NCBI GenBank assembly: GCA_016169945.1
Contig: JADLSH010000312.1
Span: 1-64,000 of the forward strand
DNA length: 64,000 nucleotides
Source of the DNA: Trachythela sp. YZ-2020
Lineage: Eukaryota; Cnidaria; Anthozoa; Malacalcyonacea; Clavulariidae
Direction of reading: 5' to 3'
Shown: in pieces, positions 2,879 to 53,516 of the stretch
Layout of the letters: each line of letters starts with the position of its first letter
Numbering within the stretch: position 1 is the stretch's first letter
Notes under the pieces: model-generated
Seen by the model: the letters and a program-made list of their open reading frames with translations, nothing else
Databases searched by the model: none
Told to the model about the DNA's origin: nothing
Program-made: the position numbers and the translations under genes

Positions 2879-2944
2879 TTCATTTAACCCTTCTACAATG
2901 TCTGTAGGATTTGTTAATTTAGAATAATTGATAATTAGTTCATT

Positions 2945-3210: not shown

Positions 3211-3222
3211 GATTTTTTGATT

Positions 3223-3338
3223 TTGCCAGTGCTGCCCTCGCGCTCGCGACTTCGTTTGCTCTCGACTAGCAGAGGTCGACTTGCCAGTGCAGCCCTCGCG
3301 CTCGCGACTTTGTTTGCTCTCGACTAGCAGAGGGCGCT
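3223..3338. repeat. 58-bp tandem duplication
   Basis: Two adjacent units (3223-3280 and 3281-3338), each starting TTGCCAGTGC and containing CCCTCGCGCTCGCGACTT and CTCGACTAGCAGAGG, with three visible substitutions. GC-rich compared with the surroundings. Confidence 0.85.
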
Positions 3339-6640: not shown

Positions 6641-6735
6641 TTACGTTAAAATACACTTAAGTTAAATTTCTTAAAAACTTAAGTTAAAGAAAACTTATAT
6701 TAAAATGACTTCAAATTAAACGGACACTTATGATT
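6255..6735 (+). repeat. Minisatellite array, GCTTACGTTAAAAGGACACT family
   Basis: Tandem, imperfect units of GCTTACGTTAAAAGGACACT and ACTTAAGTTAAAATGACTTT. It follows the LINE 3' end and is interrupted at about 6730 by nested LINE tails. The array resumes at 7541-7618 and closes with TAAATAGATC, the same closing sequence as the array at 10166-11430. Confidence 0.88.
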
Positions 6736-7336: not shown

Positions 7337-7540
7337 TAGTATTAATAATAATAATAATAATAGCTTTATTCATCCATCTTAAGATTAAAAAGTACAATGG
7401 ACTTACAATTACTTGTTAAGAAAGTATATGCTGTGAATATGTCTTTATATTACAAATTTTGTTAGATAATTAAGCAGTCACATCCTATCTTTACTCTCTG
7501 TGATCTGCAGGTGATGAAACTTACTATCCAATTATAAAGT
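7337..7540 (-). mobile_element. Second LINE/SINE 3' tail with (TAA)n
   Basis: Reads on the minus strand as AT-rich 3' UTR ending ...AATAAAGC(TATTAT)n; the (TAATAA)n run at 7338-7362 abuts the neighbouring LINE. No coding frame. The family cannot be assigned from this tail. Confidence 0.5.
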
Positions 7541-7618
7541 TTAAAAGGACACTTCATTTAAAAGAACACTTAAGTTACAAGAACACTGCTAAGCCTTAAG
7601 GTTCATATAAATAGATCA
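7541..7618 (+). repeat. Distal remnant of the first minisatellite array
   Basis: Carries TTAAAAGGACACTTCATTTA, 'AAGAACACTTAAGTTA', then a TAGCCTTA-like motif and ATAAATAGATC. It aligns with the end of the second array at 11350-11430, showing that 6255-7618 (minus the nested LINEs) and 10166-11430 are copies of one unit. Confidence 0.75.
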
Positions 7619-18400: not shown

Positions 18401-20704
18401 CGAAATAATGTGCCTTGTTTTAGTGTCAAAACATTCAGGAATGCGACTACATTCCGATGCCTTTTACTGTTAAAATGTCAAACTCTTATTAGTAATATTG
18501 ACGCAATTACCCGCAGACCAATCATATGTCGTTATTCTCGAAATGTCGATTTCTCAACGTTAATAGTTTTTCGCGTTAACACGAAAACATGATTCTCGTT
18601 TTTCGCGGTTTTGCTAATAAGCCTATGCACAAAGCGACACTTTTTGCAATTTCTGTAATCAGATATGTATATAACCGACGTTTTGGTGATTTATTTACAG
18701 ATGCTGAATGTACCGGTAAGGAAATTGATCTAGTTTATGTTGTGGATGCTTCTCTTAGTATAACACTGGCGAATTTTGATGAAGTGAAACGCTTCCTTCA
18801 AGAGTTAAATATCAGGTTTGATATTGGCGATGATAAAGTTCGTGTAGCCGTTCAACAATATGGAAGCACTTTTGTGTATGAGATACAGCTGAATGAGGTT
18901 GCTAAGAATGGAGATAATCGGACATTGAACTCATATATCAATGGAATACAAAGTCTTGGCGGACATACACTCACAGGAGAGGCTCTTCACAATGCTAGAA
19001 CCAAGGTAAAAAATATATATTCAAATATTACTGTTCGTTATTATACATTAAAACTTCATTCAATGCACGTCTGCAAAAACTTCACAACACAGCTGCTCGT
19101 ATTATAGCACATGTGCCAAATGAGGTAGATCAACAAACTGTACTGAATATATTAGGATGGGAGCCACTCAAAGAACAAGAGTGAAAGCCAAGGCAGAAAT
19201 AATGTTTAAAACGCTCAATAACATGCGGCCAAACTCACTAAAATAATTATTTACTTTCAAAACGGAAATATTAAATCACAGTCTTGCCAAAGCCAAATAT
19301 ACGAACAACATGAAGAAAAGTTTAATGTACGAAGGAGCTTCCTCATGGAACTCTCTACAAGAAAATATAAGAGAAAGTAAATCGATCTCAAGTTTAAAAA
19401 GAAAAATCGCGGCTACTCCTAGCTTATAAAATCACATGATTCTTAATGTAAATAGATGCTTATTATTTGTATATTTGTTACTGCATGATACTTCTTTATT
19501 TTATTTTTTTTACTTGTAACTATTTGTTAATATTTTACACGCCCATTGCGGAAACCAGCTTTAGCTGAGAATGTTAGCGTGGTTAAATAAAGTTATTATC
19601 ATCATTCTCGTTCTTTATTGGTCAACATACGCCCGTTGATTCTCAATGTCCGGCAGCTGTGACGTCATTTCCGCCAAATGCTGTGAAAAATTATTGGCCG
19701 CTGATGACGTCACTACCTCAAAGCCGGGAATGGCGCGAAAATTTTCTTGCCGAAGATGACATTGCAATCTATAAAGAATACCATAAAAACGGAACAACTT
19801 AAAATTCTAATGATGCTGGTTGACTAACACTTTGTAAACCTGTGTCCTTCCATTGTCCCCATTCGCAATGGCGTTGTTCCCATGTTCAATCAGGACAATG
19901 GTTGGATTGAACATGAGAACAATGCCAGAATCATGGTTGATTGAACATGGGAAGAATGTCATTGCGAATAGGGACAATGGGAGGACCTTACCCGAGTTTA
20001 TAAAGTGTTAGTCAACTAGCATCATTAGAATTTTAAGTTGTTCAGTTTTTTTAGTATTGTCTATAGTTTATTTTAATGGTGTACTGTTTATACAATTTTA
20101 ACAGCTATGGTTGCATACGTGAGAACAGTGTACTCGGAACAATGCCATTTGAACATTTAGAAACTCAGAATATTAGCTTTTACAATTGTTTTTGTTAGTA
20201 TTGGATTTATTGTATTATTTTAAGCAATTTGCAGTAATTTGCATAATGTACAGTATTTAAGTGAGTTGCTGTTCTAAACCATAATAATCCTGATGATAAC
20301 GTTTTTTAACCAAAATTTTTACCAGTGTCACATACTTATCGATGAAAGTTAAATTTATTAATGTTTTTTGGTTGCTGAGAGTGAGACAATTGTAAATTTT
20401 GTAGATGCTCATCCCGGCGGAAGGTGATAGAGTTAATGTCCCCGATATCTTGATACTGCTCACGGATGGTCGAGCTAGTGATGGAAACCTGCAGTTTGAC
20501 GAGGCGGATAGCCTAAAAGCAGATGATGTGACAATTATGACCATTGGGGTGGGACATGACGTGAATGAAAACGACTTGAAGAAGATTGCAAGCTCAGCGC
20601 ACGACGACGATACTAAGAAGCTTACATACATGGTCGATTTTGATGAGCTGGATACAATTGCTGATGAAATAGTCGAGGAGGCCTGCCACCATGCAAAAAA
20701 ATAA
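12353..20704 (+). CDS. Secreted von Willebrand factor A domain protein with N-terminal Cys-rich module (4 coding exons)
   Basis: Proposed exons: 12353-12407, 13328-13456, 18701-19005, 20405-20704. All boundaries obey GT/AG. Phases agree (1, 1, 0), giving 789 nt or 262 residues. Exon 1 is a hydrophobic signal peptide. Exon 2 adds a 43-residue module with eight cysteines. Exons 3-4 are one complete vWA fold with an intact metal-binding MIDAS: 'DASLS' in the first strand, the Thr of 'GGHTLTG', and the Asp of 'LLTDGRASD'. vWA domains bind protein ligands through a divalent cation; a signal peptide plus one vWA suggests an extracellular-matrix or secreted adhesion role. AATAAA lies at 20863. Intron 2 (5.2 kb) and intron 3 carry LINEs. 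The exon 2-3 join is inferred from phase; the alternative is that exons 1-2 form a separate short peptide ending at 13473. Confidence 0.7.
13328..13456 (+). CDS. vWA gene exon 2: eight-cysteine module
   Basis: Acceptor TCTTCAG at 13321-13327; the first codon is completed by exon 1. It encodes about 43 residues with eight Cys, beginning 'KKFCDWPDCICYY' and closing in a CC pair. The donor AAGC|GTATGT at 13457 leaves phase 1; read-through instead would stop at 13471-13473 after five more codons. The spacing matches no domain that I can name. Alone with exon 1 it would resemble a small secreted Cys-rich peptide. Confidence 0.65.
14205..14290 (+). repeat. Copy of the 34137-34208 repeat end, inside vWA intron 2
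   Basis: Shares 'CTTTATCACATAT', 'TTAAACATTAATTTCTTTTG' and 'CATGAATTA.TGATGAGTTTTT' with the end of the insertion at 33686-34208 in the P2 left arm. Probably a fragment of the same dispersed element. The rest of 13480-14850 holds no recognised gene. Confidence 0.5.
14850..16935 (+). mobile_element. Decayed LINE (end of endonuclease, linker, RT) in vWA intron 2
   Basis: Same strand as the host gene. Starts near the end of the endonuclease ('VIRIGLSDHS', 14865-14895). The linker has 'SWNLINNLLGK' (15330). RT motifs in order: 'KISKSTAIDNIPAKAL' (15610), 'NYRPILIPPI' (15800), 'HQQGFRPKHST' (15905), 'VILDIPKAFDSIDHNKIL' (16005-16060, motif A with Asp), 'GSILGPLLFLLYVN' (16200). Stops and frameshifts destroy the catalytic DD region. 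The C-terminal 'LIQPYFDYCSPLYG' is at 16630. Several frames are needed to read it, so it is inactive. Confidence 0.85.
17840..18208 (+). mobile_element. LINE 3' end with (ACT)n tail
   Basis: Carries the conserved LINE C-terminal 'YSGAKLWNSL' motif (about 17850-17880), then 3' UTR with ATTAAATAAAGTTTT and a (TAC/ACT)n microsatellite (18145-18208). It may be the 3' end of the LINE at 14850. The intervening 16940-17840 contains sequence that I cannot assign. A serine-rich frame on the minus strand is only the microsatellite read backwards. Confidence 0.65.
18701..19005 (+). CDS. vWA gene exon 3: N-terminal half of the vWA domain
   Basis: Acceptor TTATTTACAG|ATGCTG; the first two bases complete a split codon. 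Encodes 'DLVYVVDASLSI' (MIDAS DxSxS), the 'VRVAVQQYGS' strand and 'SLGGHTLTGEAL' (MIDAS Thr). Ends AACCAAG|GTAAAA in phase 0. The reading frame extends left of the acceptor, but that part is not domain-like and is presumably intron. Confidence 0.85.
19060..19608 (+). mobile_element. 5'-truncated LINE in vWA intron 3
   Basis: Encodes the last third of a LINE polyprotein: 'LQKLHNTAARIIAHVP', 'LGWEPLKEQR' and 'SLMYEGASSWNSL'. The 3' UTR ends GTTAAATAAAGTTATTATCATCATT. A related fragment at 35265-35825 carries the matching 'LDWEPLKAER'. The start lies about 55 bp behind the exon 3 donor. Several frameshifts. Confidence 0.8.
19792..20043. mobile_element. 252-bp hairpin MITE in vWA intron 3
   Basis: Nearly full-length inverted repeat. 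It begins GAACAACTTAAAATTCTAAT and ends with its complement; inner arms carry CATTGTCCCCATTCGCAATG and TTCCCATGTTCAATC against their complements. No coding capacity. No clear target duplication was found (left flank AAAAACG, right flank AGTTTTT). Confidence 0.8.
20405..20704 (+). CDS. vWA gene exon 4: C-terminal half of the vWA domain
   Basis: Acceptor AATTTTGTAG|ATGCTC, phase 0. Encodes 'PDILILLTDGRASD' (third MIDAS Asp), 'VTIMTIGVGHDVNENDLKKI' and 'YMVDFDELD', the canonical last strands and helix of a vWA fold, then 'EEACHHAKK' and TAA. The closing Cys probably pairs with the Cys just before the domain in exon 3, as is usual in extracellular vWA modules (inference). Confidence 0.88.
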   Translation: MLIPAEGDRVNVPDILILLTDGRASDGNLQFDEADSLKADDVTIMTIGVGHDVNENDLKKIASSAHDDDTKKLTYMVDFDELDTIADEIVEEACHHAKK

Positions 20705-21445: not shown

Positions 21446-22319
21446 ATCAAGAGGCCAAGCGGCCCATCTGCAAAATGCTAGATTTTGATTCGTTCTGGAG
21501 AAGACGGCAACGAGCAGTTCGGACCGCTCACGCCAGCAAGTTCTTGTCTGCCGACTGAAAATATGAAAAAAGTTGTTTTTCAACGTTTATAGATATCAAT
21601 CTGAATAACGTTTTATTCCAGTTTATTGTTTATTTTACAAAAGTTGCGAAAAACCTTTCACAGCAGACACATTGGCGCCTTTTTACCGACGCTAACTGGC
21701 TTTATTGTCAATGAGATGTAAACAACGCAGTTTTAACTCAATAAGCAGCTCACCTTTCAAAATTAAAAAATTTTTCAAGAAAAAGATTAGCCGCATAATA
21801 AAAAGCTTATTAAACAAGCTTGCGCGGTTCGGAAAGAAGGATATTGGTCGAGTTCTTTCTTCGCTTTACCTCCCGTTCGGTCAATAACGTATTTTATTAA
21901 TTTTCAATAGGCAGTGATTAACTCGACATTTTTGCTTCTTTGATCGCTGCATGCACGATTTCCCTATTAATATTTATATCTTTTCTATGTTAATGGTGGG
22001 TTTAACTAAGCCGCACCGTAGTGCAGCAGATGGTGTTCAACTTCAGAATTCAGAAATATTGACACTTATACGAGCAAGCAAATTCAACTAAATCTCTCTA
22101 TTCTATTTTGTTTCCACCAAATACAAGACTACTTGTGTTGCATGCAGATTTTCCTATAGCCAGGCTATACATTGATTGATATAAATTATTTAGCCATCGC
22201 CACACAGAATAGAAAACAAGAACTAGCATCACTAAGGCAGTAAGGGACCGTTCTTTAATTATATCTGGGGTGGCGAAGAGAAATTGGTTGGGTGATAGTT
22301 TTTTCAACTTAATTAAAGG

Positions 22320-24423
22320 ATGGGTAGAATAGATTTTATATATACACATATACACATCATATGCGACGTGTCATCGCCATCAATCTCTCGAATGGCTGAG
22401 CCATTTGGATACTGTATACCAACTGTCAAGGAAGTAGGAGACGTTGTGACGACCATGACTATACCTACAAGAATTATTGCACGAAAATCCTTACCATTTA
22501 CTAAAACTTTTGGACGTAATTGTATTTTAAAGCATAATGCCTCAAACTGTATTATAGTATCATCAAGAACGAAACCACCGTGCGGGGCAGGATCCCCAAC
22601 CTTATTCGTACCTTCAATTAGGTTATCTAATGTCATGTCCCTCACCCCCAAGATAGACCAGCTGCGCGAATCAATTACCTTTAGTAATATAGACCTAATT
22701 TGCATCACAGAATCATGGTTACAAAACCATATCCATGTTAACATTGTTTCAATCTCTGGATATAACATTGAAGTTTTCAGGCAAGATCTTACATCACTTG
22801 CTTCGCTTGATCTTGACTCTCATGAAGATGTCAATAAGATATGGCTTCATTGGAAAAGCAAATTTATGCGAATTGTTGATAAACATGCACCATTAAAAAA
22901 ACGTAGAAAAGGCAAATCACGGGAACCATGGATAAACAAAAATCTCATAGTTAATAAATGGCGAAAGAACAATTTAAAAAGAAAAGCTTGTAAAACGAAC
23001 AATCCCAACGATTGGAAAGTTTACACAACTGACAAAAATCGGTATAATCAACTGATTAAAAATACAATTCAAGCACACTACACACATGAAATCCAGGATA
23101 ACAAAGGCAACATGAAAAACACATGGAAAAGCATAAATAGATTGTTAAATAAACAATCGAAAACCTTACATGTAGGGCAACTAAAAAATGCCAATAATGA
23201 AGAAATTGAAGATAAGAATATCCAAGATGCCTTTAACAAGCATTTCATCGAGGTGGGTCAACGACTATCTCAGGAAATTCCTGAAGCCACACAACAGCCC
23301 GAGTCCTACATATATGAGATAAGTGCACAGTTTCATTTTCGTGAAATTTCCCAACAAGAAATACTGCATTTACTATTGAATTTACCCACAAATAAGGCAG
23401 CAGGTCACAAATAGACAATCGTTCACAATATTGTCAGGTCAATGGAAATATCTCTCAACCATTAAACATGATCAGTGGAATACCACAGGGGTCAATCCTA
23501 GGCCCGTTACTATTCCTACTTTATATAAATGACCTCCCAACTGCTTAAATGGTGGCAAGTGTAATATGTTTGCTGATGACACTCAAATTGATATTTCTAG
23601 CAATGACATAAACTGTAACAAATGTATTGAACAATGTATCCCACTGGCTGACTGCAAACAAACTTAGCCTGAATACCAAGAAAACAGAGTACATGGTTAT
23701 AGGGTCACACCAAAGGTTAAATTCAATAGAAACAGACTCTCCAGTGTATCTTGGTACAAACAAAATTCAACGAATTCTTACACCTTGGAACATTAGTGAT
23801 TGTTTATAAACCTTGGTGCAACCATACTTCGAATATTATTCTCAATTGTGGGGCAGCCTCGGCTTCACGCTTGCAGATAAATTGCAGCGCCTGCAAAACA
23901 GAGCTGTGCGCATCAGCACGAAACCTAAACCTTGACAACCTGGAGACTTGAAGGAACCAACAACTCGCAACATTAATGTTTAAGGTCAGACATTCAATGG
24001 TTCCTAACTCCATCTCAAACATATTTCAAAGAACCGATCAGGTACATAATTATCAAACGAGACAGATACAATTCAATTATCTGCCTCCTCAACCAAAAAC
24101 TAATTTTAAGAAAAAATCATTTAGCTACAGGGGTGCGGTGGCTTGGAATAATTTACCCTGTGATCTTAAAAGATCGGAAACCATTCATTCTTTCAAAAAT
24201 CATATAAACCAAATATGATTACATTTCGGACATTACGAGACAACATCTAGTAATCACATATAATTGTAATTAATTATTTTTTCCCATCTTGTAAATATTT
24301 TATACATACGGCCTATTGGAAGATGATTTATTTTTGTTTTCCTGTACATAGTTTATACATAGTGAAATAGTCCAGTATTCAAATAAAGTTTTAATAATTA
24401 TAATAAAAAAAAAATAATAATAA
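22320..24423 (+). mobile_element. Internally deleted LINE (longest reading frame in the window)
   Basis: A 364-codon frame (22320-23414) contains the endonuclease start ('NVMSLTPKIDQL', 'IDLICITESWLQNHI') fused directly to the linker ('LHWKSKFMRIVDKHAP', 'NTWKSINRLLNKQ') and the RT finger start ('NLPTNKAAG'). Most of the endonuclease is thus lost without breaking the frame. A second deletion removes most RT palm motifs; 'GIPQGSILGPLLFLLYIN'-type sequence and 'MFADDT' remain (23470-23590). The C-terminal domain and 'HNYQTRQIQFN' follow. The 3' tail is TTTAATAATTATAATA. Same family as the LINE at 7619-10165 but better preserved. Confidence 0.88.
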
Positions 24424-30200: not shown

Positions 30201-31035
30201 AGCTATACCTAAAAAAGAGAAAAAGAACGTAATGCAGAAGCTTTAACAATCACGACGTTACTTGCAAATCTGTTAGAGATATTACAACGGCAATAAATTT
30301 GTATAAGTGGCGGAAATCGCTGTACTATGAGCGCAACTACAATTACGTTATTCTAAAAAGGCCCGATTACGTAATTCTAAAAAGCAAAGCAGAAATATGA
30401 CGTACTAACGGCTCAATCTGTAAGGCTGTACCGGGGAAGAGGGCGGGAGGAGGGGGGAGGTTTATAGGCGGGCTTCTCTGTCACAGAACACTGGGATGCA
30501 GGAACCCAAGGCCCTAAACTTTAAAAAAGTTGAAAAACGGAGGCCTAAGCCCTCCAAATGTAATAATTATATGTTGAATATTTATTAATCTCCATTATAC
30601 GTGTCTTGTTACAGTTGTTGTGCATGAGTGGCTAAGAATTAAAAACGTTGAGGCTTTTGCATGTGATTTAACTATAATTCCACAAGAACGCAGGAAATAC
30701 CATTTGACAGCCTCTAAATATTCCGGGGAGCATGTCTTCGGAATCACGAAGAGTTTCTTCTTAGCCGTTGGCACAAGCTAATCTTTTCTTCCGCTGCCTA
30801 TACTAAATCTTTGAATCGGAATCAGTCGGGAAAAATATTTCTCATCCGGAAATTTTTGATAGGTAAACCCCTCCCCCCTAAATTATAACAGGCTATTCAC
30901 GGCCCTGTTAATCTTACATGCACTTTTAGCTACAGTAGTTGAAGACTTTTATTTAAACAAAGACATTATAAAGACATTTTGGAGGAGGTGTGGTTAATTT
31001 GGTTATGTTGGCATCAGTACTCCGCTCCCACGGAA

Positions 31036-38988: not shown

Positions 38989-41702
38989 TGGCAACTGACC
39001 TTGTAATAAAAATATCCAATATGTTTCAATGTCGACATTTGTATGACAAGTGCGAGTCCATTTTGAAATTTCTGTAGTCTATTGTTTTGTCGCTGTAGTA
39101 ACTCGAAGAAAATATTGAAAGTTTCTAAATATTTGGTAAATTACAGCTACATTCGTAAATTACTCAACACAAATACTTAAAATACCTTTATACTAATGCA
39201 TCGAAATAAAACTGGTGAAAAGCTGCAAAGTAAATAAAAGAAGGACTCAACGTTGGGACATTATAGAATATAATTTAATTTTAATTAATCGCTAGTACGG
39301 TACAGTTGCTACTCCATTGCTAATGTGAGTAAAACAGGAATGACCAATCATGTGAGATTTGGGGTTGGAGTGATCTTTAAGGCTGTTTTCCAGTCATGCG
39401 TTTTTTATACGTACATACAGGCGCGGAAAATTTTAATTAAAGTTTGTAATATTTTACAAATTAGGCTAGTTAACAAATGCATACTAACACTTACGGAACA
39501 CTAAATTATGTACATTTATTCATTAGGTTATTTTATAAATAACATTTAAATCGTTTTAAAAAATTTTCTTACTTGTAGCTACGTACGTGCGTCGAAAAAC
39601 GCGTAACTGCATGGAAAGCAGCAAATTGTATATTTATCGCAATTGAGTATATGTTCAGGAATTTTTGTTAAATAAAGAAAACATTGCTGTTTCATTTGAA
39701 GTCTGCTTTGCAGAATACATAGCCCTATTCTTTTCCAACAAATAATTATGGTATTAATATTTTTATAGAATTAAGTTGTTTTGCCCAAATCATAGTTATT
39801 GAGTTATTAAAATCACTTGAAAATGTTTATTGGATTTTGAGCAGGTAATTAAACTTTTTTAATTAGTTTTTTATGAAATACATGACGCAGAATTTCAATT
39901 TAATAACATTTGCTTGTTGCAATTTTTCCTGCGTGTACGGCTCTTGCCCACTTGAAACATCCTCTGTACTGATTTATTTTAATAAGTAATAAATTTACAA
40001 TTTCTGCAAAGCACATGGGTTGGGTATGTGCTTAGCTTGCCAATACAATCACTAATATCATCAAGCTGTTCCGTGTTCGAGTATGTAGAATGATATAACT
40101 TAACGTCACTTTTTTACCTCGCATTTTAGTATTACGACTTTAGTATTATGTATTATTGTGCCGTTTACAGCGCTTATAATTCATCCTAATCTTGTAAATT
40201 AAAATGCAAGAAAATTCATTTTTGCGGTTTGTCAAAAATAGAAATCCTATTGAATGGTTTGACATATAATCCTGTCAATATGTTTTCGAAACTCGTAAAA
40301 TGCTCGGCCGGATTCCATGTCAAACTATTCAATAAAGTATATTTATTTAACGTTATTACTGTTTGCATTTTGAGTTATTAAAATCTATTATACATGTTTT
40401 GGCATTTTTGGCAAGTAATTAATTTTTATTAGCTAGATTCAGGTAAATATTGACGCTGTTGCAGCTGTGTTATTCTTCCATTTGTAATGTTATCTTTTAA
40501 TTTAAAGTATTGACAAACGTAACGGTATAAATTCCACCGACCACTGCGTGCTTAAATACTGTTCAAGACGTTCTACAAAAGACACATCTTAAGACTTTGA
40601 TAAATTGTTGGGACAAATCTGTGGCCTAAATTTTGCGACTGTGATTCCGTAAGTATTCCGTAACTAATTCCGTAACTATAATTGTCTCTCTTCATGTTGA
40701 CTTTATAAACTTATCTGATGTAATATATGTAGCATGCAATTACTTTTATATTTCTTATTTGTTCATCTTAGCGTAGTTCATCTTATGGTAGTTTTTCTCT
40801 AAAATTATCACTCTTTTTTAAGAAATATTTTCATCATTCGAACTGACATTTCGTTTGAAATAAAATTAAATAAATAATGTAGGCACCTTAAATAAACGCC
40901 TTATTTTTTGTGGTAGGTTTCTAGCCCTGATTTTGTAAATATACGTTTATATATCTAGATTGTTTTTTATTACGTTTAGGCGAAATTATTAAATAAAAAA
41001 GAAAATAAAAGAAGTATAAATGTTCGACTTGGTAGTACGAATAGACTAAACATATGGACTTACAAAACTTATGAAAAGACTGACAAATTGACTTATATAT
41101 AAGCTGATTTACGGAAATTCGGCTATCGCTGCATGTTCCAAGTGTACAATGTGCATGGAATCACTCTACACTTAATCAATGCAATAATTAACTTCAAATA
41201 TTATTCTTTCTGGAAGCATAACAGATCTACGTCGTTATTTAGTTAAATTTAAAAGGTCCGACAAACATTTAGGAAACATATTGTAAGAAAAAACTCGATG
41301 CATTTCTTAGAAGATGTTTAAGCCAGTAAGAAAGATAAAGAGCCTTCCGTGGGAGCGGAGTAGTGATGCAAACCTAACCAAATGAACCACACCTCCTCCA
41401 AAATGTCTTTATAATGTCTTTTTGAAATAAAAGTCTGCAAGTACTGTAGCTAAAAGTGCATGTAAGATTAACAGGGCCGTGAATAGCCTGTTATAGTTTA
41501 GGGGGGAGGGGTTTACCTATCAAAAATTTCCGAATGAGAAATATTTTTCCGACTGATTCCGATTCAAAGATTTTGTATAGGCAGCGGAAGAAAGGTTTTA
41601 TTAGTTTGTACGAACGGCTAAGAAACTCTTGGTGATTCCGGAGATATGCTCCCCGGAAAATTTAGAGGCTGTCAAGTGGGTAGGGATAAAGGGCGGATAC
41701 GG

Positions 41703-42066
41703 ATGCGGATGCGGATGGCGGATGCGGATGGCGGATGCGGATGGCGGATGCGGATGGCGGATGCGGATGGCGGATGCGGATGGCGGATGCGGATGGCGGA
41801 TGCGGATGGCGGATGCGGATGGCGGATGCGGATGGCGGATGCGGATGGCGGATGCGGATGGCGGATGCGGATGGCGGATGCGGATGGCGGATGCGGATGG
41901 CGGATGCGGATGGCGGATGCGGATGGCGGATGCGGATGGCGGATACGGATGCGGATGAGAAAATACGGATGAGAAAATGCGGATGGGGGATAAAACGCGG
42001 ATGGGAAAATGCGGATGGGGGATAAAACGCGGATGGGAAAATGCGGATGGGGGATAAAACGCGGAT
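41703..42066. repeat. Left-TIR minisatellites of the giant MULE
   Basis: 41703-41950: about 19 nearly perfect copies of the 13-mer GGATGGCGGATGC. 41951-42066: about three copies of a 31-bp unit containing GGGGGATAAAACGCGGATGG and GAAAATGCGGATG. Because 13 is not a multiple of 3, all frames stay open and give artefactual repeat 'proteins'. Confidence 0.95.
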
Positions 42067-42169
42067 GATAGCATAAATGTCGCGATAATAATAATTTATA
42101 ATTTTTTAATTTAATAATAAATTATAATTTAATAATTTCTATTATACTGACAATTATTTGCGAAATTAA

Positions 42170-42542
42170 AGGGACAATGTCACCCATATTTGACTAAAAA
42201 ATGCATTTTATTTACAGTCTGAACTGCAATTCTGAAAATAAACATCGTAAATGGATTTATTTATGACATAAGAGTAATATTAAACGACTTTGGGCTTCCA
42301 CATCAACATGTAAGACGACGTTTTCATACAAATTGACCTAAACTTGAAAAAGTGTCTGCCAACAATTAATTAAGATGGTATTTACAATCCATTTCAATCC
42401 TCGCATAATCTTAACCATCCGTACTTCTGTACACGCTTTTTGTGTTTGTTATTGCTTTATTTTGTAATTACAGTCATTCTTTCTCAGTTTTGTACAAGTT
42501 TTGAGAGAGTCAGAATTCTCAAAAATCGGTGACATTGCCCCT
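42170..42542. mobile_element. TTAA-flanked MITE nested in the left TIR
   Basis: Inverted ends AGGGACAATGTCACC and GGTGACATTGCCCCT, flanked by TTAA (42166-42169, 42543-42546). The same element sits in the right TIR at 51554-51771. This copy has about 150 extra bases between GAGTAATA and CGCTTTTTGTG. TTAA duplications are typical of piggyBac and Kolobok derivatives. Confidence 0.75.
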
Positions 42543-42549
42543 TTAAAAT

Positions 42550-43334
42550 GGGATGAAACTTGAAACTCTGGCAAAATATTCATTTCAGAAAGATCTTAAT
42601 TTTATTAAGAAATTGGGAGTCAAAATTCGCAATAGTTTGCTTGGAAATGAAGGAAATGCAAATTTTGTCGCGGTTTTTTTTAAGAATCAAACCGTGAAAC
42701 CGGGGCAAACTATATATCGTTTTAAAAGGAAATAATAGACAAGGAATTTTATTAGAAAGGGTGGTAACACTTTCGCAAATTTATATTTTGAAATAAGGTT
42801 GCGCACCCCGCCAAATGTAAAAACCCGCCGTAGAGAAAGAATTCCCAAAATACAACTCCCGGCCAAACTGAATTATGATTCTGCTGCAAATAAATTTTGC
42901 ATTTCAATTTTATTCACGTGGATTAAACACATGTACAACAAATTTATAGCAGGTCGATTCTTGAGACTTGTAAATCGTTCATACATTATCAAGTAGATAT
43001 GTCATCAGTGCTACTTTTACATCATTATAATAGTACATAATGTAAAATATTTCTTGTACAGAAACGTTAAACGAACTAACAAGTGAATAAAAATGAAAAA
43101 CCTCCATGCATAAGTACATATATGTCCGATATAACGTCAAAATGTACATTGTGTATGCACAACATCTTATGAACGACAACGAAAGTCAAATGAAAGAATT
43201 ACAGTTAGTTAATATTTAAACCAAATTGCCGTAAGATTTGTAAATGCTCTGGGCGTAGATATTGCATAAGCCAATTTGGAAGTAAAGTTATTTGCGGATC
43301 AAAGTAAGGTTGCTTCATCCCGACGCAATTTCGA
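42550..43334. other. Inside the giant MULE, no gene recognised
   Basis: AT-rich sequence between the left TIR and the 3' end of the transposase gene; likely 3' UTR or spacer. Short frames here (42553-42735, 42799-42996) have no domain signal. Confidence 0.5.
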
Positions 43335-46300
43335 TTAAGATGAAAGTAAACATTCCTCCTTGTACATTATTTCATTGCTTTGATTTGCGCGAAAACCTCT
43401 TTTCATTCTCGACACGATGACTAGATCATATGGTGGACGAGCGATGAGACCATCCGGTTTTAATGCCTGGGAGCATCCATGACAGGAACGTACCATAGGT
43501 GAGCAAAACTGCAAGAGATATAAAATAAATTCTCCTACCTTCGGTGTTGGTGGTCCAGGGAAAGCCACGGAGGGTGGTAGTGTTTGAGCAGACGGCACCT
43601 GTGAAGGTCCAGAGAAAGCCATGGAGGGTGATAGTGTTGGAGATGATGGAATCTGTGAAGGTCCAGGAAAGCCACGGGGTGGCAGTGTTCGAGCAGACGG
43701 CACTTGTGAAGGTCCAGGGAAAGCCACGGAGGTGGTAGAACTGGAGATGATGGAATCTGGGAGGCTGTTGAGACTGATAATCCATCGGAAGACAAATTAC
43801 CGGCATTCCTATAAAACGGCCGATCAATAATGGTTGTGACCTCCGGTTGGTTAGCAGTTCTACCACCCTTGCGTCGAGCTGTGGCTGCTTTACCTCCCTT
43901 TTTTCCAGTACCACTGCTGCTGTCGAAAGTCATCATAGCGGTTACGTTCATTCTCGCAGGACCTTTTCGCGAAGCCACTTTAAGTACTTTGCAGTGACAC
44001 CTACTTTCTCTGCAACAGCAATAGCATGTGAACAGATCTTGACGCTTTCCAGGCTGGACACTCTTCGCAAGTCACTTTCCCGTTTTTGCATACATCCACA
44101 TAGTGCGGTCTTTTCGATGTCTGGCTTTCCACCATATAGGCGATCTTATCGGACGTGCCTGGAGCACAAACAATTGAACCTTCGCAATTCAAGAGTTTTT
44201 CAGCCTTTTCGGTCATGGAGGTTAAGACAGCCGGTTGAACAGATCTGATACTTTCGTCTCCCAGATCGACTGAAAGTTGGACCCGCTTCGCTGGAGGAGG
44301 TACGTCTGAACATGCGTCATCTGTGTTATCACGACCTGTTGAGGGGATGCAATCTATATTTGCTTCATTCGACATTCTTTTCGCATGAAATCTTTTTAGA
44401 TGCGCTTCCCGTTGTTTTGTATTCATCTTAAACCAATCACTTTGTGACACTTCAAAGGAAGAAAAAGCAGGTGCCAAACGGTAAGGACCCTTATTAATAA
44501 CTGCGGAATCCACATCCTCTTTTTGTCGAGAGAGTAAGATGCCCATCTCACGGCAAAAATCTGCAATTTCGTTTTGTCGAAAATTAACACCGCGTTTTAT
44601 AAGAGCGTTAGCGGACTCGGGAATGTTCGTATAATATGGAATAGGGGGATCACCCAAACCAGCATTCCTGCGAGCTTCCTTCAACATACTCATTCATCAT
44701 TTCCACCTATAAATATGTGGAAGGTAATGTTAGACACCATGAACTAAAAGTACATGCATATAAACAAGCAGCTTTGCTTGCTACTACTGATGCTTCCTGG
44801 ATGCCATATTAATTACTTTCAAAAAAAACTTAGAACTTAAAATATAAAGCCAACCTTTTCGTTTATGTATTCATAAAATATGGGTGTTTTCCTCTGGAAG
44901 GTACTGTTGTTCGTTGGAGTTCCACACTTCTTTTAAAGAGAGTAGTTTTGCTCGAAGGTCGTCCTCGTCATCGGCGTCGAGAAGTCCTTTGGCGAAAAGC
45001 GGTATGTTATGTTAATAGATTTGAATTTGAAAACCAGCTGTAAAATTTCTGATTTTCATATACTAGTGCGCAGATTTTCACACAAAAGGTTTCCTCGCTT
45101 AGCTACAATGAATGAACGTAAAAATGTAAAATATTACAAACCTTTCTCCCAAGTGTCTCCGATTTTTCGTCCAAATATGTCAGACAGGAATTCTTTCTGC
45201 GCTTGATCGGGTACGTTGGACAATCTCAATTGCGTTTTGCAATTATCTCTAAAATGGCTGAAACACCGTAGATGAACGGCATACGGGAAGTTGTACTTCA
45301 TCGCTTTGAACAGTTCTTCTTCGCCATCGGTTCCAAAAGCTAAAATTTCTCGAATATCCTTATTGAGACCAACAATCTTGCTAAAAGATAGTTATATGAA
45401 TCGAAGGATTTTGTCTGGCCTAGAAGAATGGGACCAATCATGGTTGGATGGTTACCACCAACTCGGTTGACAACTTTTAAGTTTGCGAAAGACGTAACTG
45501 TTGCATTGAATTTACCCAGGTTGAATGTTGGATCTGCTCCAAACACCGAGAAACTAACCGGATCTGTACAAAATGTGGCGACGTCATGAAACTGCCAATC
45601 AAACCCTAAGACACATCGCATTTCGGGAGCTCCTATAACTTCCCGTATGAACGGCTGTTCATCACGTTGCAGCTGTTGTCTCTTGCACTGTTCCAAAAGA
45701 ATTAGCAGTGAATCTACATTGTCGTAGCTCTTTGGATTTGTATGTCCGCGCCTGTAGTATTTCGCCTGTGCACGATTTCGGGGTAGATCACTGATTGAGG
45801 AAGCCTTCGTTACGCCACCTTGCTCCTCTTGAGCATCCTGATATGCGTTCTTTGGAGTTTGAGACAAGGATTTACTTTTCAACGTGCTTACTGTGCTCTC
45901 CTTGATTCTTACATAAGGAGTAGAGTGTTTTCTCTGCAGTTTCCATGCACCATGGGTTCGATTGAATGCTCTTTCCCGTCAAAGAGATACTGAATGAAAA
46001 TCCATCTGGGGAAACCTGCCAAAAAATGAGTAATATTTCTGAGATTTTTCATGTCATTGATTGCTCGCGATGGAAAGACGCTATAACATACATTCTATGC
46101 AAATGACAGTTTTTGAAACACCTTTTTACAAAATTTAGCTATGGGCGAAGAAACTATGAATTATTACGTTTTTTACATATGTTCCCATTATCATCACTGT
46201 TTTTCATGATCTTATCTTCACAAAACTACAAATGTTGATATGCATGATTTCGCAAAACTTTCTACATTTTCGCATAATGCTTCAGTCAACTGACACCACG

Positions 46301-47790
46301 GCCCCCCAACCCCCGGGACATAGCGGGGAATTAACAAAATTTAGCGGGCATTTAACGCTATTTAACAACGTACTATGCCCGGGAGGGCGTCGTATAAGTC
46401 ATTTTTAGTATATTAATTTGTGAATTTGGATGCAATTTTAATATATTATTTCGATAAATATTATTTCAAAACATTCTCCTCGTGATATAGGAAAATAAAA
46501 ACAAACTATTGTTGTCGGGAATTAAAACTTGTGCTATCTTGTACAAAAACTTAAAAGGCTCAAATTTGAGCAAGGAAAGGCGAGAAAATACACTAAATTT
46601 TCATCGCCAGTTCGGTTGCTATCCCGTTGCTAAGGAAAAACACAACTGACCAATCAGCAACGATTTTGGTTGAAGGCCGTATAAATTATGCCGGGATTTA
46701 AACCAGGGGTTTAAAGGATGTGGACTGGGGCGAGTCAATAAAAACAAGAAAATGGCGGCTGAAAAAAGCGCATGAGACAGGTTTAATTAATACAGGTACG
46801 TGCTTTTCTCTATTTAGTGTTCAATCTTTAGCCATCCGTTGCTTTCAATACTCAAATATTATCAGGCATCGTCATTTCCATTGTTTGGATAAACTTTACC
46901 TTTTATAACTTAAGTTGCATTGGTAATTTGACACGCACCAAAGTCCTGAGGCATTATTAAAATATCAATATGTCATTCTCAATTTTTCAATATCAAGAAT
47001 ATTTTGACCGGCAGTCTTTTAAACCTCAGTCCTTCTCTCGCTCCCTCTAAGATCTCCCACTAACTCCCGGCTATGCCGGGGTTTTAACAGACTAGCCCGA
47101 GGGACGGGAGAAATAATGTATATACACAGGACCCTTTTGAAAACCACATTATGTGATATTGGCCGCCTGTATAAAGAATTTTTATAAATAAATAAATGTT
47201 TTTTTAACACTTTGTTGATGTTAAATTCCCTGCTATATCCCGGGGGTTGGGGGCTGTGTTGTCAATTGACTGAAGCATAATGGATGGGCTATCCTGTTAA
47301 TTTGTGTGAAGCACAAGCATTGCTGCTTTTACCTTCTATAAACGAGGCACACTTTTTAGATCAGGAGCAGAATTATTCTTGAAATATGTTCTTTTGACGA
47401 TATACTGTATCCCTTCCTTCAAAGGATCGTCGACGTCAACTGGCAACACCTCTCCTTCATCAAGGCAAAACGCTGGCGTTGAACACCGTTGTTTTTCCAC
47501 GAACCCAGATCGTCGCACTTCCAGTCGTTGTCGTTTTTCAGTGATGATCGGTCGAGTAGAAAGCATGCGTTGTGTTGAATAGCAGTTGGGACCTTCTTGC
47601 ATATCAAAGTATCGTCAATCGGCTTCAGGAGTGTTTCCAGAATTTCGGCTGGACATTTAATTGTCGTTGTCCACTCGTATACCGGGAGAGATTCGTCCCC
47701 ATTATAATGCTGTCCTGGAAGTCTAAACGCCATCAAAGAATATGCAACTGTCGGATTGACATCGACATAAGCATCGAGAGAAGAGTTTAG
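43335..47790 (-). pseudogene. MULE transposase gene, multi-exon and frameshifted
   Basis: Read from high to low coordinates. N-terminal exon from 47790 (acceptor CACCCCAG|CTAAAC): 'VNPTVAYSLMAFRLPGQ', 'WKCDDLGSWKNNGV', then after a shift 'IVKRTYFKNNSAPDLKS'. Next exon from 46015 (acceptor TTTTTTGGCAG): 'FIQYLFDGKEHSIEP', 'LPRNRAQAKYYRRG', and MULE catalytic motifs 'FGADPTFNLGKF' (first Asp), 'HPTMIGPILLGQ', 'LAFGTDGEEELF' (second Asp), 'HLRCFSHFRDN', ending at donor GAGAAAG|GTTTGT (about 45143). Then 'PLFAKGLLDADDEDDL' (about 45000), 'GLGDPPIPYYTNIPESANAL' (catalytic-Glu region, 44650), and a SWIM finger 'TCEECPAW' / 'ICSHAIAVAEK' (44060-44000). A basic 'GTGKKGGKAATARRKGGR' stretch follows. 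The end has a 'CHGC...KPDG' zinc-like pair (43470). At least six one-base shifts are needed, so it is a pseudogene unless the assembly is at fault. Confidence 0.8.
46280..47275. mobile_element. 996-bp TIR element inside the transposase gene intron (7-bp TSD)
   Basis: Ends CTTCAGTCAACTGACACC and, complemented, GACAACACAGCC-type sequence leading to TTGACTGAAG. Inverted similarity runs about 55 bp, through CCCCCAACCCCCGGGA.ATAGC. CATAATG occurs on both sides (46273-46279, 47276-47282). It lies between two exons of the transposase gene. Internal frames (46720-46908, 47019-47210) match nothing recognised. It is a transposon within a transposon. Confidence 0.82.
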
Positions 47791-48239
47791 CTGGGGTGGG
47801 GGGTGGGGGTGTTGTTATCAGACCGACCAATTGCTGATAGAGACTTCACTATGACATATATGGAAAAAAAGTGGTGTAACTTTTCGAAGTATGCACATTT
47901 GGGGTGTTTCTTCATGCAAATGGGGATCCTCCCCTCAGAAATGTTTTGTATTGTTGAGCGCCCTAGACTTAATTTTGTGCAATTTCAATCTGATTTTTGC
48001 TCTTTTAAGACAAATATTTGGTTCATAATCAAATTCGCCATATGCAAGACAAGTGCAAATAAAATGTGAGCTGTGTACTTACAAGGTTGCTACATTAGAG
48101 TTTGCAGTTTCCAACAGTAGTTGAAGCCGACAGTCTCCAAACATATTTTGGTGGTCCCCTAGTTTTGTGTTTGTTGCATCAGGCGAATTAATCCTTATAT
48201 ACATCAGATACATTATACCGAATAACATGCAAGATTTAC

Positions 48240-48945
48240 CTGTCGCTTTGTGTTGGTTTGTCAAAAGCAGGTGGTAAACTGTCATTGCTAATATCCGAAT
48301 CCGATGTCTTAGAACTATCAGACTCACATCATCTGCAACCATTTTTCTTGAGAGTTAGAAAGAGATACAAGTCAAATCTATACGATCAAATCAATTTCCG
48401 AATGGTACGAGTATACGTGCCCATTATAGGCAAGAACTAAGATTACATTCATTTTATTGTGCATGGGGGAGCATTGATATATTTCATGAAACAATTTTTT
48501 AAATCATGATTTGTATATTTATCCCTGCCGAAGGAAGAATTAAAGTCTGATTGTGTACGTATAGCGTATACTTACTTTTTATTGAAATCATTCAAATCAC
48601 TTTGGCAAGTATCGCTGTCGTCAGGCGAGTCGTCAATCGTTATCTATGTCGAAAGGAAAATGTTAAAATAGTACAAAAATTTCTTTTAGTACAAAACTGT
48701 TCGAGCTGTAAAAACGATGGAAAATAACAGTCTTCCAGATGAGCTATAAGATTTAGTCTTATACGATTTATATGAATCTATAATCAGTCTAAGATATAAA
48801 GCTATATAATACACCACCTGTTCAACTTGATTTTCATGTAGTATTTCGATATCATTATCATCATCGAACTCATCAGATGTGTCATGATGCGGCCTCTGCA
48901 CTTTGAAAGATTCACTAGATTGCGCACAGAAAACATAGAACTTGT
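48240..48945 (-). CDS. Acidic Ser/Asp-rich exons between kinase and transposase
   Basis: Three candidate minus-strand exons. About 48940-48822: 'HHDTSDEFDDDNDIEILHE', ending GAACAG|GTGGTG. 48643-48578: acceptor CGACATAG, 'ITIDDSPDDSDTCQSDLNDF', donor GTAAGT (excellent). About 48318-48240: 'SDSSKTSDSDISNDSLPPAF', donor GTAAAT. They share composition and splice logic and could link the kinase exon to the transposase exon at 47790 in one transcript. The frame between the second and third needs a one-base correction, so the gene model is tentative. Low complexity allows no functional call. Confidence 0.4.
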
Positions 48946-48964
48946 TGAACAGAATGTTAAACAT

Positions 48965-50070
48965 AGAACAGAATGTTTAAATTGAGGTTTCCATTTCCAA
49001 CCATAAATCTTTTGTTTTCACCATCAGAGGAATTTCCAAGGATTTTTTTTTATTTGGAGCAATTCCCCCTGACCCTATTTTATTCAGATTTATGTGGTAA
49101 TTCAGAACTTTTTAGAAATCCCCCGCCCTCCTTCCCCACAAAATGAAATATTGAGGTGGCTCGATGTGTAGTAAAACATCGTTTTGAGCAATAATATCAT
49201 GAAGTTTAAGTGTATTACTGACATTACTGGCTGTTAAACCGAGATAATTTGTCAGCGTTTTCAATGGTTGTATTTCCAAAACAAGATATTTAACAGACGA
49301 AAAGATATGAACGAAAACGAGACGAAGAAAAGTTATGAATATATAATTAGGTGTTATAGTTTCAAACGGCTATGAATCGCTTGTATTATGTTCTATACTA
49401 CAAAAATCTAGCTTATATTACTAGTATTTGCATGCTGATTCTGAGGCTGGTCTAGTTTGATCTTGATATAAAATACACTGAAATTAGTAACCGACAAAAT
49501 CATAGTCTCTACTAGTACAGTAGTACTCTAGATTCGGCGTCGGCAAAAATTATATTTTGACACCTTAGCAACACAGTCGAAATTACCAAAACTGCCGGTT
49601 CTCCTTGAATTTTGAAGTTATGGACCAGGAAATATATCTATGAAGAGAGATTTTGACGACGATTTCGATGGTGGTATTGCAAAACAAGACTTTTCACAAA
49701 AGAAAAGTTATCAACGAAATTATATATTTAATTTACTTTCACGCAGGTTATGAATCCCGCGTATTATGATTTATGTTGTCTACTAGTCTACAGTCTACAG
49801 AAATTTAGCTGACGACTGAGCTGATATAAACTAGAAAATTCGAACGGTTGTACGTTTATCTTGATAGCGTACACTGAACCGAAGTTAAGAGCTTTCAAAC
49901 TTATAGAGCACACGAGGGTCAAAAGACTATACCACCTGCTGGCAAAAAGTTAAATTTTTTTGAACAAAAATACCGCGCAGACTCTGACTACCTCGGGAGT
50001 AATACTGTATAATTATATAGTTTAAACTATATAGTTAGTCCTAGAATATACTAATACAATGGCTACGTAC
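48965..50070. other. No gene recognised inside the giant MULE
   Basis: About 1.1 kb of AT-rich sequence between the acidic exons and the kinase; presumably an intron of a kinase-containing transcript, since the kinase exon ends at donor AAGCAG|GTACGT. Nothing else was seen. Confidence 0.5.
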
Positions 50071-51252
50071 CTGCTTATTTGCTCCGTTGGCGTTGTTTTC
50101 TCAACTGACTGAAATTGATTTTTCAAATTAACTTGTAGACTGTCAAAAACGTCCTTAGCACTTGGCCTTAATGATGGCTCGAATTCTGTGCACGCTTCGT
50201 AGATTTCCGCAAGACGCTTCCATTCATTACTCTGCTTTAATACATATTTCTCCTGGGCTATTGGCTTTTGTTTCGCCTTCAAGAAATCTTCCAGGATTTT
50301 CCAGCCTGCTTCATCTTTATATTGATCTGAAAAGGATGCTTCAAACCAGGATTTATTAAATTGAACAACACCATTCCATACGCCCATATATCTGCTTTCT
50401 TTAAATCTTCAACTGACGCGGCAGGCAACTGAAAATCGTTTACTAAAAGTTCCGGAGCCATGAAAACCGGAGTTCCCTGTTAACTTGATTTGTCTTGGAA
50501 TAAAGAATAGTGTTGGTGCGAATATCTTGCGATCTGCTTTCTCCAAAATCTGTAAGTTTGCAAATCAAAGGTGTCTTACGGCTGATTTCTTCAATTTTGG
50601 CAGGGTCGGTTAGCTGACAATAATGCTGGTTTGAGACTAAAATATTGGCAGGCTTTAAATCTCTGTGAGTAATGCCACTTTCGTGTAGGTATTGTAGTCC
50701 AGACGCGACGTCGCTAGCTGCCCGATAAAACACTTGTTTGTCTATGTTTGCGCACGAGTTTTTGTCCAAGTTCAAGAGGAGATCCGCCAAACAGTTCACT
50801 TTAGCCCTTAGACCGAACGGCTTAAAATCAAAATATACATATTCTAGCAGTAGCGTGTACTCGTCGTCACAGATCCCTTTAAACTCTACAATGTTACGAT
50901 GAACAAGATTGTTCAAAAGTTTGGCCTCCTTTAACATTTTTCTTCGTGTTTCTTCTTCGTCTCCTGCGCCAAATAGCTTCTTAACAACGACTTTTTGGTG
51001 ACACGACGGAATTTCAGCAGTAAAAATTGTTGAAAAGCCCCCTTGTGCTATTTCATCTTTATTAATGAAATCAGCAAAATGGAAGCATGGTAGCCCTTCA
51101 ACTTCAAGTGTCGGAGAAGTTGTTGAAAAATCATCAGTTTGAGAAACTAAGTTGCCAAATATCGACATCTTCCCAACTTTGAAATCACAGTCAGATCTTG
51201 ATCTCCGTTGCAATTCCCATGCATTTACATATTGCCCAGACACGAGCAACAC
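50071..51252 (-). pseudogene. Protein kinase carried by the MULE, two frameshifts
   Basis: The minus-strand frame from 51252 gives 269 residues. Glycine loop 'AQGGFSTIF' (69-77), VAIK lysine in 'KVVVKKL' (87-93), αC Glu in 'MLKEAKLL', hinge 'LLLEYVYFDF', catalytic loop 'HRDLKPANIL' (196-205), Mg-binding 'LTDFGES' (233-239). A one-base shift near 50475 then moves 'GTPVFMAPELL' (activation segment) to another frame; 'ADIWAYGMVLFNLINPGLKH' follows. A second shift near 50325 leads to 'ACTEFEPSLRPSAKDVFDSL', the last kinase helix. All catalytic residues are present across the three frames, and HRDLKPAN indicates Ser/Thr-type. It ends at splice donor GTACGT (50070). Either dead by two indels or an assembly-damaged live gene. 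Host-derived cargo or an old passenger of this transposon family cannot be told apart here. Confidence 0.85.
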
Positions 51253-51553
51253 AATGTAGCAAATTTGTTACATTGAATGTCAGTTGTGACATTGAATGTA
51301 GCTAACTAAGTTGTGACACGAATGTTGATATGTCTATTATTGTTGCATGCGTAAGTCCTGAGATGTGGTAAATTTATAGGTCTGGTGAGAATTATTTGAT
51401 CGACATTTGGCGCATAAAAGCGCTTGAATATATTTGGGGTTTGGAAATAATTGTAGGTAGAATTCATACAAAAGAAGTGGCAATCCTAGTTGAATTGATA
51501 CTGCAGTACTAGTACTTGAATAAATCCTTAAATTTTTATTACAACCGACTTAA

Positions 51554-51771
51554 AGGGCAATGTCACCGATTTTTGAGGAATTCTGACTCTCTCAAAACTT
51601 GTACAAAACTGAGAAAGAATGGCTGTAATTACAAAATAAAGCAATAACAAACACAAAAAGCGTATTACTCTTATGTCATACATAAATCCATTTACGATGT
51701 TTATTTTCAGAATTACAGTTCACACTGTAAATAAAATGCATTTTTAGTCAAATATGGGTGACATTGCCTCT
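51554..51771. mobile_element. TTAA-flanked MITE nested in the right TIR
   Basis: AGGGCAATGTCACCG ... GGGTGACATTGCCTC between TTAA (51550-51553) and TTAA (51772-51775). Orientation is mirrored relative to 42170-42542, and both lie at the same place relative to the minisatellites. So it was part of the TIR before this copy moved, or the TIRs were homogenised. Confidence 0.75.
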
Positions 51772-51877
51772 TTAATTTCGCAAATAATTGTCAGTATAAT
51801 AGAAATTATTAAATTATAATTTATTATTAAATTAAAAATTATAAATTATTATTATCGCGACATTTATGCTATCATCC

Positions 51878-52990
51878 GCGTTTTATCCCCATCCGCATTT
51901 TCCCATCCGCGTTTTATCCCCATCCGCATTTTCCCATCCGCGTTTTATCCCATCCGCATTCATCCATCCGTATTCATCATCATCCATCTGCCATTCCATC
52001 ATCCGCATCCATCCGCCATCCGCATCCGCCATCCGCATCCGCCATCGCATTCGCCATCGCATTCGCCATTCGCATCCGCCATCCGCATCCGCCATCGCAT
52101 CGCCATTCGCATCCGCCATCGCATCCGCCATCCGCATGCGCCATCGCATCCGCCATCGCACCCGCCATCGCATCCGCCATCCGCATTCGCCATCCGCATC
52201 CGCCATTCGCATCATTCGCCATCCGCATTCGCCATCCGTGATTCGCCATCGCATTCGCCATCCGCATCCGCCATCGCATTCGCCATCGCATTCGCATTCG
52301 CATCCGCATTCGCCATTCAGATTCGCCATCGCATCGCCATCGCATACGCCATCGCACACGCCATCGCATGCGCCATCCGCATTCCGCCATCGCATTCGCC
52401 ATCCGCATCGCCATCCGCATCCGCCATCGTGATTCGCCATCCGCATCCGCCATCAGATTCGCCATCAGATTCGCCATTCGCATCCGCCATCGCATTCGCC
52501 ATCCGCATCCGCCATTCGCATCCGCCATTCGCATTCGCCATCCGCATCCGCCATCCGCATTCGCCATCGCATTCGCCATTCGCATCCGCCATTCGCATCG
52601 CCATCCGCATTCGCCATTCGCATCCGCCATCATTCGCCATTCGCATCCGCCATCCGCATCCGCCATCGCATTCGCCATTCGCATTCGCCATCATCGCATC
52701 GCCATTCATCCGCCATCGCATCCGCCATCCGCATTCGCCATCGCATTCGCCATTCGCATCGCCATCGCATTCGCCATCGCATTCGCCATCCGCATCCGCC
52801 ATCCGCATCCGCCATCCGCATTCGCCATCGCATTCCGCCATCCGCATTCGCCATCGCATCGCCATCCGCATCCGCCATCTGTGATTCGCCATCGTGATTC
52901 GCCATCCGCATCCGCCATCCGCATCCGCCATCCGCATCCGCCATCCGCATCCGCCATCCGCATCCGCCATCCGCATCCGTATCCGCCCTT
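51878..52990. repeat. Right-TIR minisatellite of the giant MULE (degenerate, expanded)
   Basis: About 1.1 kb of CCGCATCCGCCAT and its variants CGCATTCGCCAT, with GCATCGCCAT deletions; near-perfect 13-mers reappear only at the outer end (52905-52980). Inner end: two to three 31-bp units (CCGCGTTTTATCCCCATCCG). Four to five times longer than the left array and far less uniform. Long frames on both strands are artefacts. Confidence 0.93.
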
Positions 52991-53516
52991 TATCCCTACC
53001 CCTGTCAGGTGGTATTTTCTGCGTTCTTGTGGAATTATATAATTAAATCACATGCAAAAGCCTCAACGTTTTTAATTCTTAGCCGCTCATTCACAACAAC
53101 TGTATCAAGCCACTTATAATGGAGATTAATAAATATTCAACATATAATTATTACATTTGGAGGGCATAGGCCTCCTTTTTCAACTTTTTTAAAGTTGGGG
53201 ACCTTGGGTTCCTGCATCCCGAAGTTCTGTGACAGGGAACCCCGCCTATAAACCTCCCCCTCCTCCTGCCCTCTTTCCCGCTACAGCCCTACAGATTGAG
53301 CCGTTAGGTACCTCACATTTCTGCTTTGCTTTTTAGAATTATGTAATCGGGCCTTTTTAGGATAACGTAATCGTAGTTGCGCTCATAGTACAGCGATTTC
53401 TGCACTTATACAAATTTATTTTCATTGTAATATCTCTAACACGTTTGTAAGTAACGTCGTGATTGTTAAAATTAAGCTTCTGCATTACGTTCTTTTTGTC
53501 TTTTTTAGGTATAGCT

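Follow-up and report, generated by a model that had tools for sequence, protein, structure and literature searches.

Mutator-like elements (MULEs) may carry genes besides the transposase; the Kaonashi elements (KI-MULE), for example, carry a ULP-like protease. Kaonashi is mentioned in an animal survey that describes MULEs as rare in animals and reports no Pack-MULE from reference genomes (PMC8277862). Other extra genes or domains of MULEs are mudrB, MutB, vanB/vanC, SET and OTU, and the main text of the survey that names them, which covers 1631 MULEs, does not contain the word 'kinase' (PMC6446971). The Muta, Tm1 and Phantom MULEs make 8-10-bp target-site duplications and have foldback-like ends of short tandem units; in their terminal inverted repeats (TIRs) the unit measures 9-15 bp in 10 of 12 long-TIR families of Aedes and 13-15 bp in Tm1 (PMC5225508, PMC3169594, PMC6446971). 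Muta1 has been studied with an excision assay in yeast (PMC5225508). Outside the MULEs, an alpha-kinase gene is known from the IS3EU DNA transposons of rust fungi (PMC12730594). Here we describe a Mutator-like element of 11.3 kb, at positions 41678-53001 of a 64,000-nucleotide stretch of Trachythela sp. YZ-2020 (contig JADLSH010000312.1, positions 1 to 64,000; the window hereafter), that carries a protein kinase gene and a MULE transposase gene.

Two results are central. A two-gene unit inside TIRs and target duplications was demonstrated by computation in two families with unrelated ends, and at many divergent loci the pair was likewise shown to recur with its order and strand fixed. Judged by its sequence, the element is probably an autonomous-type foldback/Phantom MULE with two tandem genes, whose TKL-like serine/threonine kinase would be an old, selected component of these transposons in this genome; the likeness to foldback/Phantom elements refers to TIR structure and not to the transposase clade.

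The element, its genes and its copies

The 19-bp terminus GGGTAGGGATAAAGGGCGG is matched exactly at 41678-41696 (+) and 52983-53001 (-). With up to three mismatches permitted, none of 100 shuffles gave two matches, so the pairing of the terminus in the window would not be expected by chance. The element is flanked by 9-bp target duplications, and an inverted paralogous arm at 29.2-31.0 kb represents the empty site, where the 9-mer CTGTCAAAT stands once. The left end contains a 13-bp unit (20.6 copies) and a 32-bp unit (3.2 copies), and the right end about 76 copies of a 13-bp unit. These results bear out the inverted terminus and the minisatellite-built ends described in the initial annotation. 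Its 9-bp flanking repeats are present on both sides but are not identical (CTGTCAAGT and CTGTCAGGT), and the empty site that it placed in 'the other P2 arm' is exact in position but not in every letter. It may be noted that the right minisatellite (window 52010-52979) puts 1127 bp between terminus and unique anchor; in the other copies read this distance is 155-603 bp, whichever end is taken. The greater length may reflect a fresh expansion or an assembly effect.

Both genes lie on the minus strand, the kinase upstream of the transposase. In the majority sequence of the family, an open exon of 366 codons and four small predicted exons make up a kinase of 495 residues, with a predicted tail of 129 residues that include 31 D/E and 25 S/T. 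The Pfam Pkinase profile matched the open reading frame (ORF) of the window copy at E 1.3e-23, and a further match of the kinase to this profile reached E 6.1e-34 (118 bits; cut-off 31.7). The kinase is called TKL-like because its best sequence matches among solved kinases (PDB) were RIPK1, from the single sequence, and CTR1, EGFR and IRAK4, from the profile. Structure prediction from six sequences was poor (mean predicted local distance difference test score, pLDDT, 48.9). The SUMO-interaction-like motif ITIDDS in the tail was not beyond chance, since one appeared in 7.9% of 5000 shuffles.

For the transposase, the MULE profile PF10551 gave E 0.0032 on the piece in the window and E 5.8e-6 on an uninterrupted copy, over profile positions 4-98 of 99 and with 27.1 bits, just below the cut-off of 27.6. 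Two D motifs and the CxxH of the core are kept in three families. An IMG/VR search for relatives of the transposase returned two pattern matches, neither of which was confirmed. The initial annotation had named a MULE DDE transposase with a SWIM domain: the MULE assignment holds, but the third acid of the triad was not identified, the SWIM profile reached only E 0.22 (zinc-ligand-like residues are readable by eye), and the frame is broken in the window copy.

A genome-wide look for terminus pairs with target duplications, as the initial annotation had proposed, was carried out on the assembly (396 contigs, 578 Mb in total). There were 37 forward and 38 reverse exact matches to the terminus, and the reversed control pattern gave none on either strand. 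From 40 stretches and the window, 24 element copies with this terminus (family 1) were read, leaving out eight copies of 1.9-3.1 kb and three loci with an unpaired terminus. Target duplications were present in 18 of the 24 (13 perfect 9-mers, four at 8/9, and one 10-mer read by eye from the flanks); six lack the duplication or an end. All 17 copies of at least 8.9 kb match both kinase and transposase, some with internal gaps or inserts. The seven shorter copies are internal-deletion derivatives: only the kinase start and the transposase end are left in four of 3.6-5.3 kb, while in three of 3.07 kb the transposase is gone and the kinase exon largely preserved. These derivatives keep the ends and have target duplications of their own, and would therefore have moved with proteins made elsewhere. 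The copies at C248:85994-117024 and C248:346819-363693 have the 9-bp duplication AAATTTTAC in common, and each also has large inserts and an additional terminus in its interior. They may represent a single insertion that occurs twice (a segmental duplication or haplotig).

Compared with the majority sequence, the kinase half (4 kb) showed 3-18 substitutions in 13 of 14 copies, the copy on C354 having 60, and the other half 0-16 in 11 copies. Across the aligned copies we counted 184 single-base deletions, 146 of them in homopolymer runs of at least three; longer gaps numbered 0-6 per copy and half, with 16 in C354. Single-base homopolymer deletions are also frequent in the C107 and C188 copies of the second family, pointing to an unpolished long-read assembly. 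Few substitutions together with homopolymer deletions look like a young family in such an assembly. As these deletions resemble assembly error, the broken frames of the window copy would be weak evidence of decay. The window element is a recently active cut-and-paste transposon.

Family 2 comprises the element on C107 and C188 (9.8-10.0 kb, 99% identical), whose ends are unrelated to those of family 1. Its TIR starts with GGCTATCTTTAAAAGC and has its own 31-bp minisatellite, and perfect 10-bp target duplications were found in both copies (GTAAACAATT and ATATGGCAAG). Inside the TIRs and duplications the gene order is that of family 1, kinase and then transposase; the stop-to-stop kinase ORF has 366 codons, and the ORF of a transposase exon has 379. 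Between the two families the kinases are 36-39% identical, and the transposase cores likewise. With E 8.7e-26, the kinase of family 2 also hits a PHROG family that bears the annotation serine-threonine kinase; we read this as similarity among kinases in general.

Pairing and constraint across the genome

Kinase and transposase searches were each made with family-1 and family-2 queries and merged to loci, leaving out family-2-query rows that repeated family 1 or fragments of listed loci. The scans score best candidates only, so the locus numbers are lower bounds: at least 115 kinase and at least 125 transposase loci. A transposase lay within about 15 kb of 57 of the 115 kinase loci (55 distinct transposases; median distance 4.15 kb), and in 56 of the 57 pairs it was downstream on the same strand. 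By group, a transposase was in range for 20 of 36 family-1 loci, 12 of 13 family-2 loci and 25 of 66 others, 24 of these last 25 pairs being in the standard arrangement. In the family-1 search, the identity of divergent paired kinases to family 1 was 36-61%. The presence of the same kinase in other copies had been set beforehand as the test, and it came out in favor, with the near-full-length copies, the family-1 loci near a transposase and the many divergent families all agreeing.

As a control, rows within 3 kb of a family kinase were removed from the 146 of a PF07714 search, and the remainder was merged to 118 loci. A transposase was in range of two of these unrelated kinase loci, in one case on the opposite strand and in the other upstream of the kinase; the standard arrangement did not occur among the 118. 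The many loci of tyrosine-kinase type in that search, like the gene structure, fit an animal genome. The chance expectation for a transposase in range is about 0.7% per locus.

In six kinases of different families (36-60% identical to the first), the glycine-loop G, VVxK, KE, HRDxKxxN, DFG and GTxxxxPE are invariant, and the motifs FD(F/L) and LVSNxHY are shared as well. The catalytic K, E, HRD and DFG residues are thereby kept throughout; HRD(L/I)K marks the serine/threonine type. The initial annotation had claimed a kinase with all catalytic motifs, which the profile match and these residues sustain, but the window copy has its exon 1 frame broken by two single-base length differences. In the family-2-query search, 21 rows cover at least 290 of 359 query residues without a stop. 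Between family 1 and C19 the proportions of nonsynonymous and synonymous differences (pN and pS) were 0.24 and 0.85 for the kinase and 0.18 and 0.82 for the transposase; pS is saturated, hence no ratio is given. It is clear that both proteins are constrained between families.

The features of the element are collected in Table 1. Elsewhere in the window, positions 1-11409 are densely set with minisatellites of TTTTAACGTAAG type, with units of 17, 20 and 37 bp, and also have large inverted duplications; this part may be a further foldback-like element. By eye from the ORFs, a von Willebrand A-like exon lies at 18580-19107 (+) and a fragment of a non-LTR (long terminal repeat) retrotransposon at 22317-23414 (+).

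Table 1. Features of the window element and its empty site (window positions)
Feature	Position	Strand	Remarks
Empty target site CTGTCAAAT	30702..30710	-	9-mer once; inverted paralogous arm
Left target-site duplication CTGTCAAGT	41669..41677	+	
Left terminal inverted repeat	41678..42279	+	19-bp terminus, 13-bp and 32-bp minisatellites, AT-rich subterminal part
Transposase exon D	43205..44706	-	SWIM-like zinc motif plus C-terminal region; interrupted frame in window copy
Transposase exon C, predicted	44855..44986	-	
Transposase exon B	45142..46015	-	MULE catalytic core (DPTFN ... TDGE ... CxxH)
Transposase exon A, predicted	47333..47790	-	N-terminal region; putative start
Kinase exon 5, predicted	48079..48193	-	includes start of stop codon
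Kinase exon 4, predicted	48240..48346	-	acidic tail
Kinase exon 3, predicted	48576..48643	-	acidic tail
Kinase exon 2, predicted	48818..48914	-	acidic tail; GT/AG and phase
Kinase exon 1	50071..51168	-	kinase domain; 366 codons in family majority sequence
Right terminal inverted repeat	51663..53001	-	1127 bp between terminus and unique anchor
Right target-site duplication CTGTCAGGT	53002..53010	+	8/9 identical to left one

Alternative readings

A host kinase might have been picked up once, as in Pack-MULEs, and amplified as inert cargo. MULEs do capture host fragments, Muta1NA3 of Aedes carrying a 276-bp kinase fragment (PMC5225508), and both the persistence of kinase pieces in short derivatives and the ratios within family 1 given below would fit such an origin. 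We nevertheless hold it to be quite unlikely: catalytic residues and open frames are retained, pN lies far below pS between families, the fixed order and strand recur at loci with kinases 36-61% identical to family 1, and the fact that family 2 has its own TIRs largely refutes a single capture. A Pack-MULE, moreover, has lost its transposase and carries a host fragment, while here the transposase was matched in 17 of 17 near-full-length copies. That host kinase genes merely lie near MULEs, through insertion near genes or shared gene clusters, is extremely improbable. Most divergent pairs, it is true, were located by coordinates with their ends unread; yet 56 of 57 pairs have one order and strand, which the control loci never showed, and in families 1 and 2 the kinase is inside the TIRs and target duplications. 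Random capture and chance neighborhood were both rejected on the 17 copies, family 2 and the genome-wide pairing. The initial annotation had taken the kinase for a stable passenger. The evidence goes beyond a passenger and speaks against the analogy with random capture by Pack-MULEs.

Fusion of kinase and transposase into one spliced protein would agree with the shared strand and with predicted kinase exons 1-5, which join in frame and come close to the transposase exons. It is very unlikely, as exon 5 of family 1 enters an in-frame TTG TAA in 14 of 14 aligned copies and does not reach exon A in frame via strong splice sites; in family 2, where the exon chain is partly resolved, TTG TAA closes the last open stretch ahead of the transposase exons. 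With this ending in both families, the kinase and transposase are therefore read as two tandem genes, a fusion not being supported. More weight, though still on the unlikely side, belongs to the possibility that the kinase gene is a module passed by recombination from one MULE family to another, and does not descend with one transposase lineage. Kinase and transposase identities correlate weakly, eight pairs combine transposases 53-68% identical to family 2 with kinases of only 35-40%, and the TET/JBP genes in fungal transposons are reported to transfer passively (PMC12730594). Order and strand are fixed, however, and C19 and C346 agree in both genes (kinase 60-61%, transposase 67-69%); partial exons yield noisy identities, and a faster rate of evolution in the kinases might be explanation enough.

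Our own reading, of the kinase as an old and selected component, has several observations against it. Over the kinase exon, every one of the 17 aligned copies of family 1 is broken, copy c of C189 by an early stop and not by indels. Within family 1 the ratio of nonsynonymous to synonymous changes (N/S) was 0.98 for the kinase (14 N, 4 S, 3 stops) and 0.58 for the transposase core (8 N, 4 S, 1 stop), neither indicating clear constraint; this can be expected of copies after insertion. Families read to both ends number only two. No transposase was detected in range of 58 of the 115 kinase loci, 16 of these being family 1 (mostly deletion derivatives, as far as read), and no kinase in range of 69 of the 125 transposase loci, among them a group of five (C241:690k, C138:1158k, C131:392k, C4:823k and C297:1819k). 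The correlation between kinase and transposase identities was rho 0.13 (n=33, p 0.45) for the family-1 query and rho 0.44 (n=22, p 0.04) for the family-2 query; given so weak a correlation, kinases could have been replaced or exchanged. The five-locus group has related MULE transposases, 40-41% identical to family 1, and is a natural comparison for kinase-less elements.

Possible role and relation to known systems

On the sequence evidence, the kinase appears to be an old accessory gene of MULEs in this genome and not a random capture. Both genes lie between the ends, so they move together. Since the kinase seems to have been kept by selection across transposon families, it should help the element or its spread. 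It would be made together with the transposase and would most likely phosphorylate the transposase or host chromatin and repair proteins, by which transposition might be timed or silencing weakened; a role against silencing would be as likely as phosphorylation of transposase, chromatin or repair proteins. That a lineage of animal MULEs has long used a serine/threonine kinase of its own to regulate its transposition or host silencing seems to us an even bet.

Few extra genes are found in eukaryotic DNA transposons, and a conserved kinase, if true, would mean a transposon that brings its own signaling step; the timing and control of transposases by phosphorylation would become directly testable. 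The kinase family could also be a source of spreading kinase genes that the host might recruit, in view of the 58 loci with no transposase detected in range. Foldback-like minisatellite ends were already known. For a kinase gene common to MULE families we found no earlier report in the open-licence papers searched, most subscription papers and Repbase lying outside that search.

The element agrees with MULEs in its 8-11-bp duplications (18 of 24 copies in family 1, two of two in family 2), its MULE core and its long TIRs in multiple copies, and with the foldback/Phantom type in TIRs made of variable-number tandem repeats. Phantom/Muta and Tm1 likewise combine 8-10-bp duplications, long composite TIRs, a MULE transposase and many non-autonomous derivatives, and reverse-complementing the terminal motif of Tm1, CCTACCC, gives GGGTAGG. 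They differ in that the Muta1 transposase has 504 amino acids in two exons, and the descriptions of their autonomous elements consulted here mention no kinase gene (PMC5225508, PMC3169594, PMC6446971). Drosophila FB4 Pack-MULEs share foldback ends and 9-10-bp duplications with the present element but are non-autonomous, with a recent capture of the host gene Ssk (PMC8277862). In MULEs with extra genes, as here, the transposase is accompanied by an additional gene or domain, which in some cases is an enzyme or anti-silencing factor; the present element differs in that its second gene is for a canonical protein kinase whose tail is acidic. The IS3EU elements of rust fungi are, like the present one, DNA transposons with a transposase and a kinase gene. 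Their transposase belongs to another superfamily, their kinase is an alpha-kinase, which is an atypical kinase, and their two genes have opposite orientation, whereas in Trachythela a Pkinase-type, TKL-like kinase lies on the same strand as the transposase.

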